DNA from: Bacteroidia bacterium
GTDB taxonomy: Bacteria; Bacteroidota; Ignavibacteria; SZUA-365
Assembly: GCA_027493955.1 (NCBI GenBank)
Contig: JAOSJT010000001.1
Location: forward strand, 3,273,131-3,337,130
Direction: 5' to 3'
DNA: 64,000 bases
Shown here one piece after another: positions 25,263 to 29,523 of the stretch. Position 1 is the first letter of the stretch. Every line of letters starts with the position of its first letter. A program made the translations under genes and the position numbers. The notes under the pieces are model-generated. The model was not told where the DNA came from. It saw only the letters and a list, made by a program, of their open reading frames with translations, and did not search any database.

Positions 25263-27092
25263 TCAGCCTTTCACGTTGAAATATTTTGCTTCCGGATGAT
25301 GAACGATGATGGCGCTGGTGCTTTGCTCGGGGACCAGTTGATACTCTTCGGTCAGAACGACACCGATGCGTTCCGGTTGCAAAAGAGTGAACAGCTGGCG
25401 ATGGTCTTCAAGATTCGGGCAGGCAGGGTAGCCGAAGGAATACCGCGAACCCTGATACCCCTGCGAGAAGAGCTTCCGTATCTCCGGAGCGTCCTGACCG
25501 GCAATACCGAGTTCAATGCGTATTGATCGGTGCCAGTATTCCGCCAACGCTTCGGCGCATTCGACGGTCAACCCGTGCACGTACAAATACTCCTGGTACT
25601 TGTCGTCCCGGAACAGCGCTGCCGTGTACTCGCTCGCATACGCTCCCATCGTCACGAGGTGGAATGCGCAAACATCTGCGACTCCGCCGTCAACCGGACG
25701 GAAAAAGTCGGCTATACAAAGATAACGGTCTCCACTCTGACGGGGAAATGAAAATCGCTGCCATTCGACATACGTATCCAGGGCGTTGGACTGCCCGGGC
25801 CAGATGCCGTATAATTCTGCGTCGTTCAGATTCCGTGGACGAAACACCACGAGTTCGTCTCCGTCACTGGCGCAGGGGAAGTAACCGTACACGACGGCGG
25901 GACGCAGCACCGCCTCACGCTTGAGTCGCAATTTGAGCTCTTCAAATCGGGGTCTGATCACCTCCCGTAGCTCGCGTTCCTGCTCCTCGACGCTGCGACT
26001 CCCCCGACGAAATTGCCACTGACCGCGGAATAAGGCCGCTTCGTTGATGTACTCGTAGATTTTTTCCACGGCGATGTCCGTGACGACCTTCGTTCCGAAA
26101 AACGGTGCGGCAGGTATCGCCGCGTCCGGCGACACAGCGCTGCGCACCGTAAAAGTGGGATGACCTGTTTTGGTCGCCGCGATGACGGGTCGCTGACCCG
26201 CCCGGTGCTCCTGCACTTCGCGGAGGTGCATGGCCGACTCCATGGATGCACCGCCCGGCGCCTCGATGATGCTTCCCTCGGATTGCGTCTGTTCTTTCGC
26301 CTCTTCCTCCTCCGAAATGTCGACGGTGTCCAAAGCGCGCCCGTAGGTAAGGGATTCCATGAAACGAAGGCCGTCAAAAGCGTCGCGCGCATACTGGAGT
26401 TTCCCCTCGTAGAGCGGTCGCAAATCCTCCTCGACGAAGCGCCGAGTCAGCGCCGCTCCACCGAAAACAACCGGAAGATGAATGCCGCGATGCCGCATGA
26501 GCTCGAGATTCTCCTTCATAACCAGCGTGGATTTCACGAGCAACCCGCTCATGCCCAGCGCATGCGCATGATGCTCCTCCACCGCCGAGAGCATGGTCTC
26601 GATAGGGACTTTGATGCCAAGGTTTATGACGCGATAGCCGTTGTTGGTGAGAATGATATCAACGAGGTTTTTTCCGATGTCATGCACATCGCCTTTGACC
26701 GTGGCGAGTACGATGGTGCCCAGGGCCGTGTCTCCTGAACGCTCCATCAGTGGTTCGAGCCATGCAACGGCCGCTTTCATTGTCTCGGCCGATTGCAGCA
26801 CAAACGGAAGCTGCATCTGCCCCGATCCGAACAATTCGCCGACGGTCTTCATGCCGTCCAGCAAGATGCCGTTGATGATGTCCAGCGCGTCGTGGGTCTT
26901 CAGCGCTTCTTCGAGGTCGGCCTCCAGGCCGATGCTGTCGCCGTCGACGATGCGGGCGGCAAGCCGCTCCTCCACGCGCATCGTTTCCCGCTCGGCCCGG
27001 ACGGGCCGGGATTCGGTCGCAGCGGAGCTGTAATGCGCCATGAACGCGGTGAGCGGATCGTAGAGACAGGCACGGGAGGATTCGGAACTCAT
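25263..27092 (-). CDS. Partial cobalamin-dependent methionine synthase (B12-binding plus activation modules only)
   Basis: The 609-residue protein carries only the C-terminal half of MetH. Residues about 43-125 are the helical cap (GMKTVGELFGSGQMQLPFVLQSAE), about 125-255 the cobalamin domain with DVHDIGKN (His137 ligand) and MSGLLVKST, and about 350-609 the SAM-dependent activation domain ending in EQSTSAIIVHHPEAKYF. The homocysteine- and folate-binding modules are missing, yet residues 11-20 (YDPLTAFMAH) look like the tail of the folate module, so the gene seems cut exactly at the module border. The frame stays open upstream to a TGA at about 27183 but has no Met and no homology. The missing half may lie elsewhere. 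Divergent from the Rrf2 gene. Confidence 0.85.
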   Translation of the reverse strand: MSSESSRACLYDPLTAFMAHYSSAATESRPVRAERETMRVEERLAARIVDGDSIGLEADLEEALKTHDALDIINGILLDGMKTVGELFGSGQMQLPFVLQSAETMKAAVAWLEPLMERSGDTALGTIVLATVKGDVHDIGKNLVDIILTNNGYRVINLGIKVPIETMLSAVEEHHAHALGMSGLLVKSTLVMKENLELMRHRGIHLPVVFGGAALTRRFVEEDLRPLYEGKLQYARDAFDGLRFMESLTYGRALDTVDISEEEEAKEQTQSEGSIIEAPGGASMESAMHLREVQEHRAGQRPVIAATKTGHPTFTVRSAVSPDAAIPAAPFFGTKVVTDIAVEKIYEYINEAALFRGQWQFRRGSRSVEEQERELREVIRPRFEELKLRLKREAVLRPAVVYGYFPCASDGDELVVFRPRNLNDAELYGIWPGQSNALDTYVEWQRFSFPRQSGDRYLCIADFFRPVDGGVADVCAFHLVTMGAYASEYTAALFRDDKYQEYLYVHGLTVECAEALAEYWHRSIRIELGIAGQDAPEIRKLFSQGYQGSRYSFGYPACPNLEDHRQLFTLLQPERIGVVLTEEYQLVPEQSTSAIIVHHPEAKYFNVKG

Positions 27093-27336
27093 AAAAAATC
27101 TCATTAGATTTTGGTATCTGAAACTTTCAAGACTGCTCCGTATGTTGTAATTTATTGAGTCGCATTTCGACTTTCGCGAGTCTCATTCACTCGAAGCACC
27201 TCAAAAGATTTTTACGGACGTTAAAATTTTTTTTGAAAAGCCCTTGCTATTTCAAGGAAAACCCCGTACTTTTCTTACAATAAGGTAATCAAATCTTAAT
27301 TTATTAATAGCCAACATCACAATCGGAGGTCCCTCC
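27093..27336. promoter_or_regulatory. A/T-rich divergent control region, metH-like / rrf2
   Basis: A 244-base spacer, clearly richer in A/T than its surroundings, must hold both divergent promoters. Three short dyads are visible: AGTCG-n5-CGACT (27158-27172), CCTTG-n6-CAAGG (27242-27257) and TTAAT-n2-ATTAA (27296-27307). A TTGCTA (27244) and TACTTT (27268) pair with 18-base spacing could serve the regulator gene. The 27242 dyad overlaps that -35 element and is my best guess for an autoregulatory operator; this is inference. Confidence 0.4.
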
Positions 27337-27978
27337 ATGCTGTATTCCAAAACCGCACAGTACTCCATCCAGTCGATGCTGTTCATCGCGGCCAACTCTT
27401 CCGAGCAGAACATTCTCGTGCGCGACGTCGCCCGCGAATTGGGTCTGCCCTCGTCCTTCCTGAGCAAAATTCTCCAGACGCTCAGCCGTTACGGTTTTCT
27501 GAATTCGGTCAAAGGTCCGAAGGGCGGCTTCTCGCTGTCCGAGAAAGGCGCGAACTCGACGATTGCCGAGCTCGTTGCCGTTGTGGACGGACCGATGAAT
27601 TTCGACATGTGTCTCGCGGGCTTCACGCCGTGCAGCGAAGAGAATGCCTGCCCATTCCATCATGAGTGGAAGCGCATTCGTGAAGAGATTCGTGAGCTGG
27701 TCAACAGCCGCGACATTCATGAGCTGGCTGTTGAAATGCCCGTGCGCTACCGCGTGCTGCTGACCGGCAAGGCCACCCCTGTCAAGAAGATGAAAAAGGA
27801 AGCCCCGAAAGCCGAGACCAAGCCCGCCAAAGCCGCGAAAGCTCCCGCGAAAGCTGCCAAGCCCGTGAAGGCCGCCGCGAAACCGGCACCCAAAGCTGCC
27901 GCGAAACCCGCACCCAAGGCCGCACCGAAAGCCGCGGCGAAGGCTGCGCCGAAAGCCAAAGCGGCGAAGAAAAAATAA
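27337..27978 (+). CDS. Rrf2-family Fe-S-type regulator with histone H1-like C-terminal tail
   Basis: Residues 1-145 form a winged-helix Rrf2 regulator: KTAQYSIQSMLFIA, recognition region LGLPSSFLSKILQTLSRYGFL (36-56), wing GPKGGFSL, and three cysteines C92-x6-C99-x5-C105 followed by His108 in CPFH. That arrangement closely resembles the cluster ligands of IscR (three Cys plus His). Residues about 147-213 are an unrelated tail made almost only of Ala, Lys and Pro (repeats like KPAPKAAA), as in histone H1 and AlgP-type tails. Ordinary Rrf2 proteins end near residue 150-165. GGAGGT seven bases before ATG 27337 supports the start and a terminator follows. Likely senses Fe-S status, redox or NO. 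Confidence 0.9.
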   Translation: MLYSKTAQYSIQSMLFIAANSSEQNILVRDVARELGLPSSFLSKILQTLSRYGFLNSVKGPKGGFSLSEKGANSTIAELVAVVDGPMNFDMCLAGFTPCSEENACPFHHEWKRIREEIRELVNSRDIHELAVEMPVRYRVLLTGKATPVKKMKKEAPKAETKPAKAAKAPAKAAKPVKAAAKPAPKAAAKPAPKAAPKAAAKAAPKAKAAKKK

Positions 27979-28003: not shown

Positions 28004-28038
28004 ACCGGGAGGGCCATGTGGCTTCTCCCGGTTTTTTT
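28004..28038 (+). terminator. Intrinsic terminator after the Rrf2 gene
   Basis: ACCGGGAG (28004-28011) pairs with CTCCCGGT (28025-28032), with further GCCA/TGGC pairing inside, and seven T residues follow (28032-28038). Confidence 0.88.
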
Positions 28039-28197: not shown

Positions 28198-29523
28198 ATG
28201 AACAGAAAAATCTACATAGAAACGTACGGCTGCCAGATGAATGTGGCGGACACGGAAATCGTGAACGGCATTCTCAAGGAGCAAGGCTACGAGCTTTCAG
28301 CCGAGGTCGACAGCGCTGACGCGATTTTCATGAACACCTGCGCCATTCGCGACAATGCCGAACAGCGCATTTATGGACGGCTCTCCAATTTCGAGCACCT
28401 GAAAAAACGGAATCCCCATCTCGTGGTCGGAATACTCGGCTGTATGGCCGAGCGTCTGCGCAAGAATCTGCTCGAATCCAACAGCATGCTCGATATCGTC
28501 TGCGGTCCGGATGAGTACCGCAAGCTGCCGGAATTGATTGATCAGGCCTTCGAAGGGGAGAAGGGTATCCGCACGCAACTTTCACGTGTCGAAACCTACG
28601 ACGACATCGTCCCGTTGCGCACCGAGGGCATCAGCGCCTGGGTGAGTGTCATGCGCGGCTGTGACAAATTCTGCACGTTCTGCGTCGTGCCCTTCACCCG
28701 CGGCCGCGAACGCAGCCGCTCTCTCCAGGGTGTCGTACGGGAGGTGGAAGAGCTGGTGGGCCACGGTTTTCGCGAGGTGACGCTCCTTGGTCAGAACGTC
28801 AATTCCTACAGCGATGAGCAGGGGGACTTTGCGGATCTTCTCGTTGCCGTCGCCGCCGTGCATCCCGCACTGCGTGTGCGCTTCACCACCTCGCATCCGC
28901 AGGATATGTCCGACAAGCTTATTCAGGCCATTGCAGACCACCAGAACATCTGCAATTATATCCATCTGCCGTTCCAGAGCGGCTCGGACAGAATTCTCGA
29001 ACTGATGAACCGTACGTATTCACGGGCACATTACCTCGATCTCGTCAAACGCATCAAGCAGGCCATACCGAATGTCGCGCTTTCCACAGACGTCATCGCC
29101 GGCTTCCCCACCGAAACGGAACAGGATCATCACGATACGCTTTCTCTCATGGAGGAAGTACGCTTTGACGGCGCATACATGTTCAAGTACTCCCCGCGAG
29201 AGAACACCAAAGCCTGGAAAATGGGTGACGACATTCCGGACGATGTGAAAGGGCGCAGACTGGAAGAAATCATCGAGCTGCAGCGCCGAATATCTCTCGA
29301 GGTAAACCGCAGCAGTGTCGGACGGACGGAAAGCATATTGCTTGAGGGGCCGAGTAAACGATCGGAAGAGGAGTGGATCGGTCGCACCGACACGAACAAA
29401 TCGGTTATCGTCGCTCGGGGCGATTTCTCAATCGGTGACTATGTGACAGTGCGCATCACCAGCGCCACTTCGGCGACACTCTTCGGGACGGTACTGCCGC
29501 ATGCCGCCTCCGAGGCTGCCTGA
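28198..29523 (+). CDS. miaB: tRNA-2-methylthio-N6-dimethylallyladenosine synthase MiaB
   Basis: Radical-SAM methylthiotransferase that modifies A37 of tRNAs reading UNN codons. The 441-residue protein has the N-terminal UPF0004 domain with auxiliary-cluster cysteines (ETYGCQMN, NTCAIRDNA, GILGCMAER), the radical-SAM motif RGCDKFCTFCVVPFTRG, and a C-terminal TRAM domain (about 375-435). A TTGATT/TAACTT pair (28113-28141, 17-base spacer) is a possible promoter. It heads a tightly spaced plus-strand cluster that runs to 34201. In Bacteroidota miaB is often followed by a sigma-54 activator gene and lptE, as here. Confidence 0.96.
   Translation: MNRKIYIETYGCQMNVADTEIVNGILKEQGYELSAEVDSADAIFMNTCAIRDNAEQRIYGRLSNFEHLKKRNPHLVVGILGCMAERLRKNLLESNSMLDIVCGPDEYRKLPELIDQAFEGEKGIRTQLSRVETYDDIVPLRTEGISAWVSVMRGCDKFCTFCVVPFTRGRERSRSLQGVVREVEELVGHGFREVTLLGQNVNSYSDEQGDFADLLVAVAAVHPALRVRFTTSHPQDMSDKLIQAIADHQNICNYIHLPFQSGSDRILELMNRTYSRAHYLDLVKRIKQAIPNVALSTDVIAGFPTETEQDHHDTLSLMEEVRFDGAYMFKYSPRENTKAWKMGDDIPDDVKGRRLEEIIELQRRISLEVNRSSVGRTESILLEGPSKRSEEEWIGRTDTNKSVIVARGDFSIGDYVTVRITSATSATLFGTVLPHAASEAA

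Follow-up and report, generated by a model that had tools for sequence, protein, structure and literature searches.

Sequence-specific bacterial regulators are usually regarded as separate from nucleoid proteins. Regulators of the Rrf2 family normally sense iron-sulfur status. Among them, RirA, NsrR and IscR have three conserved cysteines in common (PMC10510648). Among proteins with basic repetitive tails, AlgP is linked to gene regulation and its KPAA-repeat peptides bind DNA (PMC9239181), and HupB cannot associate with the nucleoid without its PAKK/KAAK tail (PMC5676037). Features of both kinds are found in a gene for an Rrf2-type regulator (hereafter rrf2) on contig JAOSJT010000001.1 of a Bacteroidia bacterium (assembly GCA_027493955.1), within the 64,000-nucleotide stretch analysed here (the window; positions 3,273,131 to 3,337,130). 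Its product consists of an Rrf2 domain with candidate iron-sulfur (Fe-S) ligands, followed by a histone H1-like tail rich in lysine, alanine and proline (K/A/P) that probably helps the regulator to hold on to DNA, to judge from its conservation throughout the bacterial family and from analogy with known tails.

Rrf2 domain and tail of the window protein

The gene is an unbroken frame of 213 codons from ATG to TAA (Table 1). Residues 4-131 match Pfam Rrf2 over profile positions 2-130 of 132 (88.7 bits, cut-off 30), and the protein scores 100.2 bits against NCBIfam rrf2_super (TIGR00738, cut-off 73.3); its scores against the equivalog profiles are far under their cut-offs (IscR, TIGR02010, 64.5 versus 207.55; RirA, 44.3 versus 193; NsrR, 35.4 versus 182). 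AlphaFold models residues 1-140 with a predicted local distance difference test score (pLDDT) of 72-94 per block. Foldseek searches with this model return RsrR, NsrR, CymR and IscR (probability 1.00, E-values of ~1e-8 to 1e-6), and a PDB search with a profile of relatives recovers IscR, CymR and NsrR. The original prediction of a normal Rrf2 sensor over residues 1-145, with C92, C99, C105 and His108, is borne out by the profile matches and by the positions of these residues. The loop that carries them may bind an Fe-S cluster, with H108 presumably acting as the fourth ligand, as in IscR. The gene does not lie at the isc/suf location expected of IscR, its immediate neighbours being miaB and a gene for the C-terminal half of MetH; a PADLOC scan gave no match to an anti-phage defence family.

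Beyond the domain, the composition is dominated by 23 lysines, 28 alanines and 11 prolines among 69 residues, with only two acidic residues, amounting to 90% K/A/P and a net charge of about +21. First-order Markov resampling of the tail DNA (2000 replicates) gave a mean K/A/P content of 47% and a maximum of 67%, so that no replicate reached 90%. The region repeats irregularly, with a period of 12/24 and 65-79% matches, and AlphaFold assigns it a pLDDT of ~48-58 and no secondary structure. An in-frame, almost pure and irregular Ala/Lys/Pro tail that runs up to a stop codon and a terminator, as first proposed from the letters of the DNA, is thus confirmed, with boundaries at residues 145 and 213. 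A pattern scan for terminators did not list the one at ~28004-28038 on the plus strand.

Conservation and evolution of the tail

The family concerned (f1) is represented by 12 genomes in 5 genera of the class Ignavibacteria, and its named relatives place it in the Ignavibacteria of the Bacteroidota/Ignavibacteriota group; f2 and f3 are other families of the order, f3 being the sister family. An rrf2 ortholog is present in 12 of 12 f1 genomes (domain identity 66-92%), and every one, in independent assemblies, carries a basic tail of 29-72 residues; the conservation in relatives that had been named as a check on function is therefore found throughout the family. K/A/P content is 78-95% in ten of the orthologs. 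The most divergent members, L016 and L047, have tails with 59% and 46% K/A/P, values not clearly above chance (37 and 102 of 2000 resamples of their DNA), and net charges of +10 and +11. Tail length and order differ freely among species.

Outside f1 the picture is different. Two f3 genomes have rrf2 orthologs (59% identity) that are tail-less, with 150 as last residue, so that an ending near this position, raised beforehand as a case that would speak against the tail, holds for the sister family and not for f1. Only distant paralogs are found in two incomplete genomes, one of f3 (70% complete) and one of f2 (74%). About 69 further Rrf2 loci of the genome collection terminate at residues 140-158, and no other tailed Rrf2 protein was found among the ~150 top-ranking matches listed for 395 genomes of the phylum, where alignments extending well beyond residue 155 reflect read-through of the stop codon. 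Among 228 plasmid records, none covers 80% of the query, although the low-complexity masking of BLAST could hide tails. The literature search likewise turned up no report of a tail of this kind on an Rrf2 protein, most subscription papers lying beyond its reach; the claim of novelty stands for Rrf2 proteins in this sense, but similar stretches do occur on other proteins of the same genomes.

A tree of 82 Rrf2 domains, whose inner branching is rough owing to the few columns available, groups every tailed protein and the two f3 orthologs in one 13-row clade (support 100/99). On it the distribution of the tail calls for two changes, a gain and a loss, or for a single gain if the clade is rooted on f3. 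Within reach of the search, the tail is confined to one family of one class and, as judged from the sequences, is a lineage innovation, given that the orthologs of the sister family stop at residue 150. Most likely it began as a basic tail of ~30 residues in an ancestor and later expanded into a K/A/P repeat. The start codon also varies, being GTG in most relatives (L039-L049, tail-less sister family included) and ATG in the window gene and in L016, hinting at different expression levels of rrf2.

Between close relatives, synonymous differences in the tail are near saturation (proportion ps 0.65-1.0) at a non-synonymous divergence (dN) of 0.03-0.18: L045 and L012 give ps 1.0 at a non-synonymous proportion (pn) of 0.03, and other pairs give ps 0.65-0.86 at dN 0.10-0.18. 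With 30-46 codons per tail these rates are rough, their direction being consistent across five pairs. For the Rrf2 domain the corresponding values are a synonymous divergence (dS) of 0.8-1.3 and a dN of 0.015-0.03. The tail codons are mixed, with both AAA and AAG and four alanine codons in use. Because synonymous sites are saturated yet the K/A/P residues are kept, the composition of the tail is maintained by selection at the protein level. That L016 and L047 drop K/A/P purity yet hold a charge of about +10 suggests that selection acts on charge.

Promoter region and neighbouring genes

In relatives, the promoter-like element in front of the gene mostly reads TTGACA-17-TACTTTT and is followed, on the rrf2 side, by AAGGTAATCAWATCTT. 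With one mismatch allowed, six genomes each contain exactly one copy of the 16-mer AAGGTAATCAAATCTT, always in front of rrf2, and because of this placement autoregulation of rrf2 seems likely. A wider regulon via AAGGTAATCAWATCTT was rejected on the same single copy per genome.

Table 1. Features of the rrf2 locus (window coordinates).
Feature	Position	Strand	Remarks
C-terminal half of B12-dependent methionine synthase, divergent neighbour	25263..27104	-	Pfam; adjoins rrf2 in nearly all family loci
Second intergenic block TTAGATTTTGGTATCTGAAACTTT, imperfect palindrome AGAT-N6-ATCT	27104..27127	.	metH side
Promoter-like TTGCTA-17-TACTTTT	27244..27273	+	Conserved columns in alignments A3/A4; putative function
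AAGGTAATCAAATCTT, candidate operator or leader element	27282..27297	+	Immediately downstream of -10; conserved in window and 8 closest relatives
rrf2-type regulator gene	27337..27978	+	213 aa plus stop; orthologs in all 12 family genomes
Rrf2 winged-helix and sensor domain, residues 1-144	27337..27768	+	Pfam PF02082, AlphaFold, Foldseek
Candidate Fe-S ligand loop C92-x6-C99-x5-C105-x2-H108	27610..27660	+	All four residues invariant in 19 aligned sequences
Histone H1-like K/A/P tail, residues 145-213	27769..27975	+	Net charge +21, predicted disordered
Intrinsic terminator after rrf2	28004..28038 (about)	+	RNA fold -21.4 kcal/mol, z -4.3, then U run
MiaB (radical SAM, Fe-S enzyme), downstream neighbour	28198..29523	+	TIGR01574 493 bits; synteny

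The intergenic palindrome at 27104-27127 reads TTAGAT-N6-ATCTGAA, then ACTTT, and is strongly conserved across nine aligned loci, TCTGAAACTTT inside it being invariant in 9/9 sequences; an Rfam search around rrf2 that included this block gave no known element at E up to 1. Most family loci conserve GAPDH, an LCP-like protein and the C-terminal half of MetH on the metH side, and MiaB, a SPOR protein, a beta-lactamase-fold protein and an NtrC-type regulator on the miaB side (GAPDH, LCP-like, beta-lactamase-fold and NtrC-type names assigned by eye). Methionine synthase is split in this genome: the minus-strand gene at 25263-27104 has the B12-binding and reactivation parts only, and a separate 637-aa frame ~0.77 Mb away (L269, G000:C1:4067465-4068340) has a homocysteine methyltransferase match of 287.8 bits and, by eye, also the pterin-binding part.

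Possible roles of the tail

By a modest balance of probability, we favour an Fe-S-sensing, autoregulatory Rrf2 dimer whose disordered polycationic tails add non-specific affinity for DNA. An Fe-S-type regulator of this family would have acquired the tail in the common ancestor of one Ignavibacteria family or close to it. The specific site recognised by its winged-helix dimer would most probably be AAGGTAATCAAATCTT at the rrf2 promoter, which would make the regulator autoregulatory, and the state of the cluster at C92/C99/C105/H108 would tune DNA affinity. The K/A/P tail of each subunit, 30-70 residues long, could then wrap flanking DNA electrostatically, its roughly 10-26 positive charges adding sequence-independent, salt-sensitive affinity, so that target search would be faster and the bound dimer stabilised, as with the tails of HupB, AlgP and PhaF.

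Several considerations weigh against this proposal. The tail need not serve DNA binding, because SucD, PPDK-like and YbjN-like proteins, which are not expected to bind DNA, have similar tails; the AAGGTAATCAAATCTT element could be a 5' leader instead of an operator; and the search for AAGGTAATCAWATCTT copies in six genomes found no regulon members beyond rrf2 itself. That the regulator is partly a nucleoid protein, as originally suggested, is only one possibility among others, because similar K/A/P stretches are also found on proteins unrelated to it, including metabolic enzymes.

Such proteins recur across the lineage. The genome of the window encodes a stand-alone 125-aa H1-like protein (L175, G000:C1 around 1920626; L249:10104) that begins MAKTPAPKKAAAPKKAAAPKAAAPKK, consists almost purely of K/A/P in a near-regular repeat and matched no Pfam family. 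Two further proteins of this genome carry K/A/P stretches: a PPDK-like enzyme (L185), which ends in KKAAAKKAPAKKK, and a DksA-type protein (L240), at its N-terminus. Relatives have stand-alone H1-like proteins (L119, L121, L124, L198, L231), K/A/P stretches on YbjN-like (L178, L184, L197) and XRE-like proteins (L172, L234), histone-like K/A/P N-termini on ArsC-type domains (L192, L228; PF03960 at 48.7 bits in L192) and a long KPAAKKAA C-terminal tail on SucD, the succinyl-CoA ligase alpha subunit (L233, G001:C31). Pfam confirmed one example each of the YbjN-like, ArsC, DksA zinc-finger and CoA-ligase assignments; PPDK and XRE were assigned by eye. Sister family f3 also has some K/A/P stretches (L171, L181), though its Rrf2 is tail-less. 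In 464 kb of the window genome, made up of the window and one 400-kb sample that included a stretch picked beforehand for a known K/A/P gene, the target and the H1-like gene alone exceed the threshold; besides the target, no K/A/P stretch occurs in the window or in 380 kb of evenly spaced samples. With the tail alone as query, a homology search of this genome gave only chance matches outside rrf2 and missed the K/A/P genes that it contains, probably since the correction for profile bias hides tails of this kind; degenerate DNA patterns were better at finding K/A/P genes.

Because metabolic proteins of the lineage have similar tails, the idea that the tail binds polyphosphate, RNA or a shared scaffold has to be taken seriously, although on balance it is unlikely. 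The tail would then bind a polyanion other than DNA or act as a localisation tag, so that a polyphosphate- or nucleoid-associated body would store or recruit the regulator, much as proposed for AlgP, which has KPAA repeats and localises to polyphosphate granules (PMC9239181). The spread of tails over metabolic enzymes, YbjN-like and DNA-related proteins fits a general polyanion tag better than a DNA-only function; however, no link to polyphosphate or RNA was found at the rrf2 locus, and for a member of a family of sequence-specific DNA-binding proteins the nearest polyanion is DNA itself. A long shot among such ideas is a docking code shared within this Ignavibacteria family, in which K/A/P tails would gather Rrf2, DksA-like, XRE-like, YbjN-like, SucD and PPDK-like proteins on one polyanionic scaffold (nucleoid or polyphosphate), stand-alone H1-like proteins would compete or organise, and Rrf2 would bring Fe-S or redox sensing.

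A generic charge or solubility appendage, mildly useful, devoid of a regulatory role and perhaps spread by recombination with stand-alone H1-like genes, is improbable, its chances lying between those of the tag and of the docking code. It would suit the free variation in length and order and the stand-alone K/A/P proteins of similar repeat style in several family genomes, but not the rarity of K/A/P stretches in the sampled genome, nor a tail on all 12 orthologs when the open frames of the genome's four other Rrf2 paralogs measure just 158-168 aa. Least credible are neutral low-complexity growth through replication slippage and an artefact of assembly or frameshift: the tail DNA does show weak period-12/24 repeats, but its mixed codons and the saturated synonymous sites beside retained amino acids argue strongly against neutral slippage, K/A/P content in the other two reading frames is 46% and 10%, and the frame stays open to a stop codon followed by a terminator. 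An assembly error or frameshift fusion, a concern raised from the start, is ruled out by 12 independent assemblies that agree on the same type of tail.

A small Fe-S-type regulator with a conserved tail under selection and with naturally tail-less sister-family orthologs offers a clean comparison for the effects of a disordered polycation on affinity, target search, salt dependence and localisation, and the tails of relatives (29 to 72 aa) form a natural series ready for it.

With IscR, RirA, NsrR and RsrR the window protein shares the winged-helix Rrf2 fold and three sensor-loop cysteines, with a histidine shortly past the third as in IscR; its cysteine spacing is C-x6-C-x5-C, and unlike it, their solved chains have 129-184 residues and none is reported to carry a polycationic tail. 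The tail itself is of the AlgP/HupB type, being disordered, Lys/Ala/Pro-rich and basic (90% K/A/P, +21, pLDDT ~50). AlgP (AlgR3) and PhaF of Pseudomonas likewise attach a disordered H1-like K/A/P-repeat C-terminal tail to a folded protein, but their N-terminal part is helical and not Rrf2, and AlgP has a longer repeat region, 154 aa in length and built of regular KPAA repeats. The chlamydial histone-like HC2, whose profile weakly matches the N-terminal stretch of the family DksA-type protein (33.9 bits, cut-off 40), and stand-alone H1-like proteins are similarly K/A-rich, but are nucleoid proteins that lack a sensor domain. Mycobacterial HupB likewise has a PAKK/KAAK-rich basic tail on a DNA-binding domain (PMC5676037), from which the window protein differs in belonging to a family of sequence-specific regulators.
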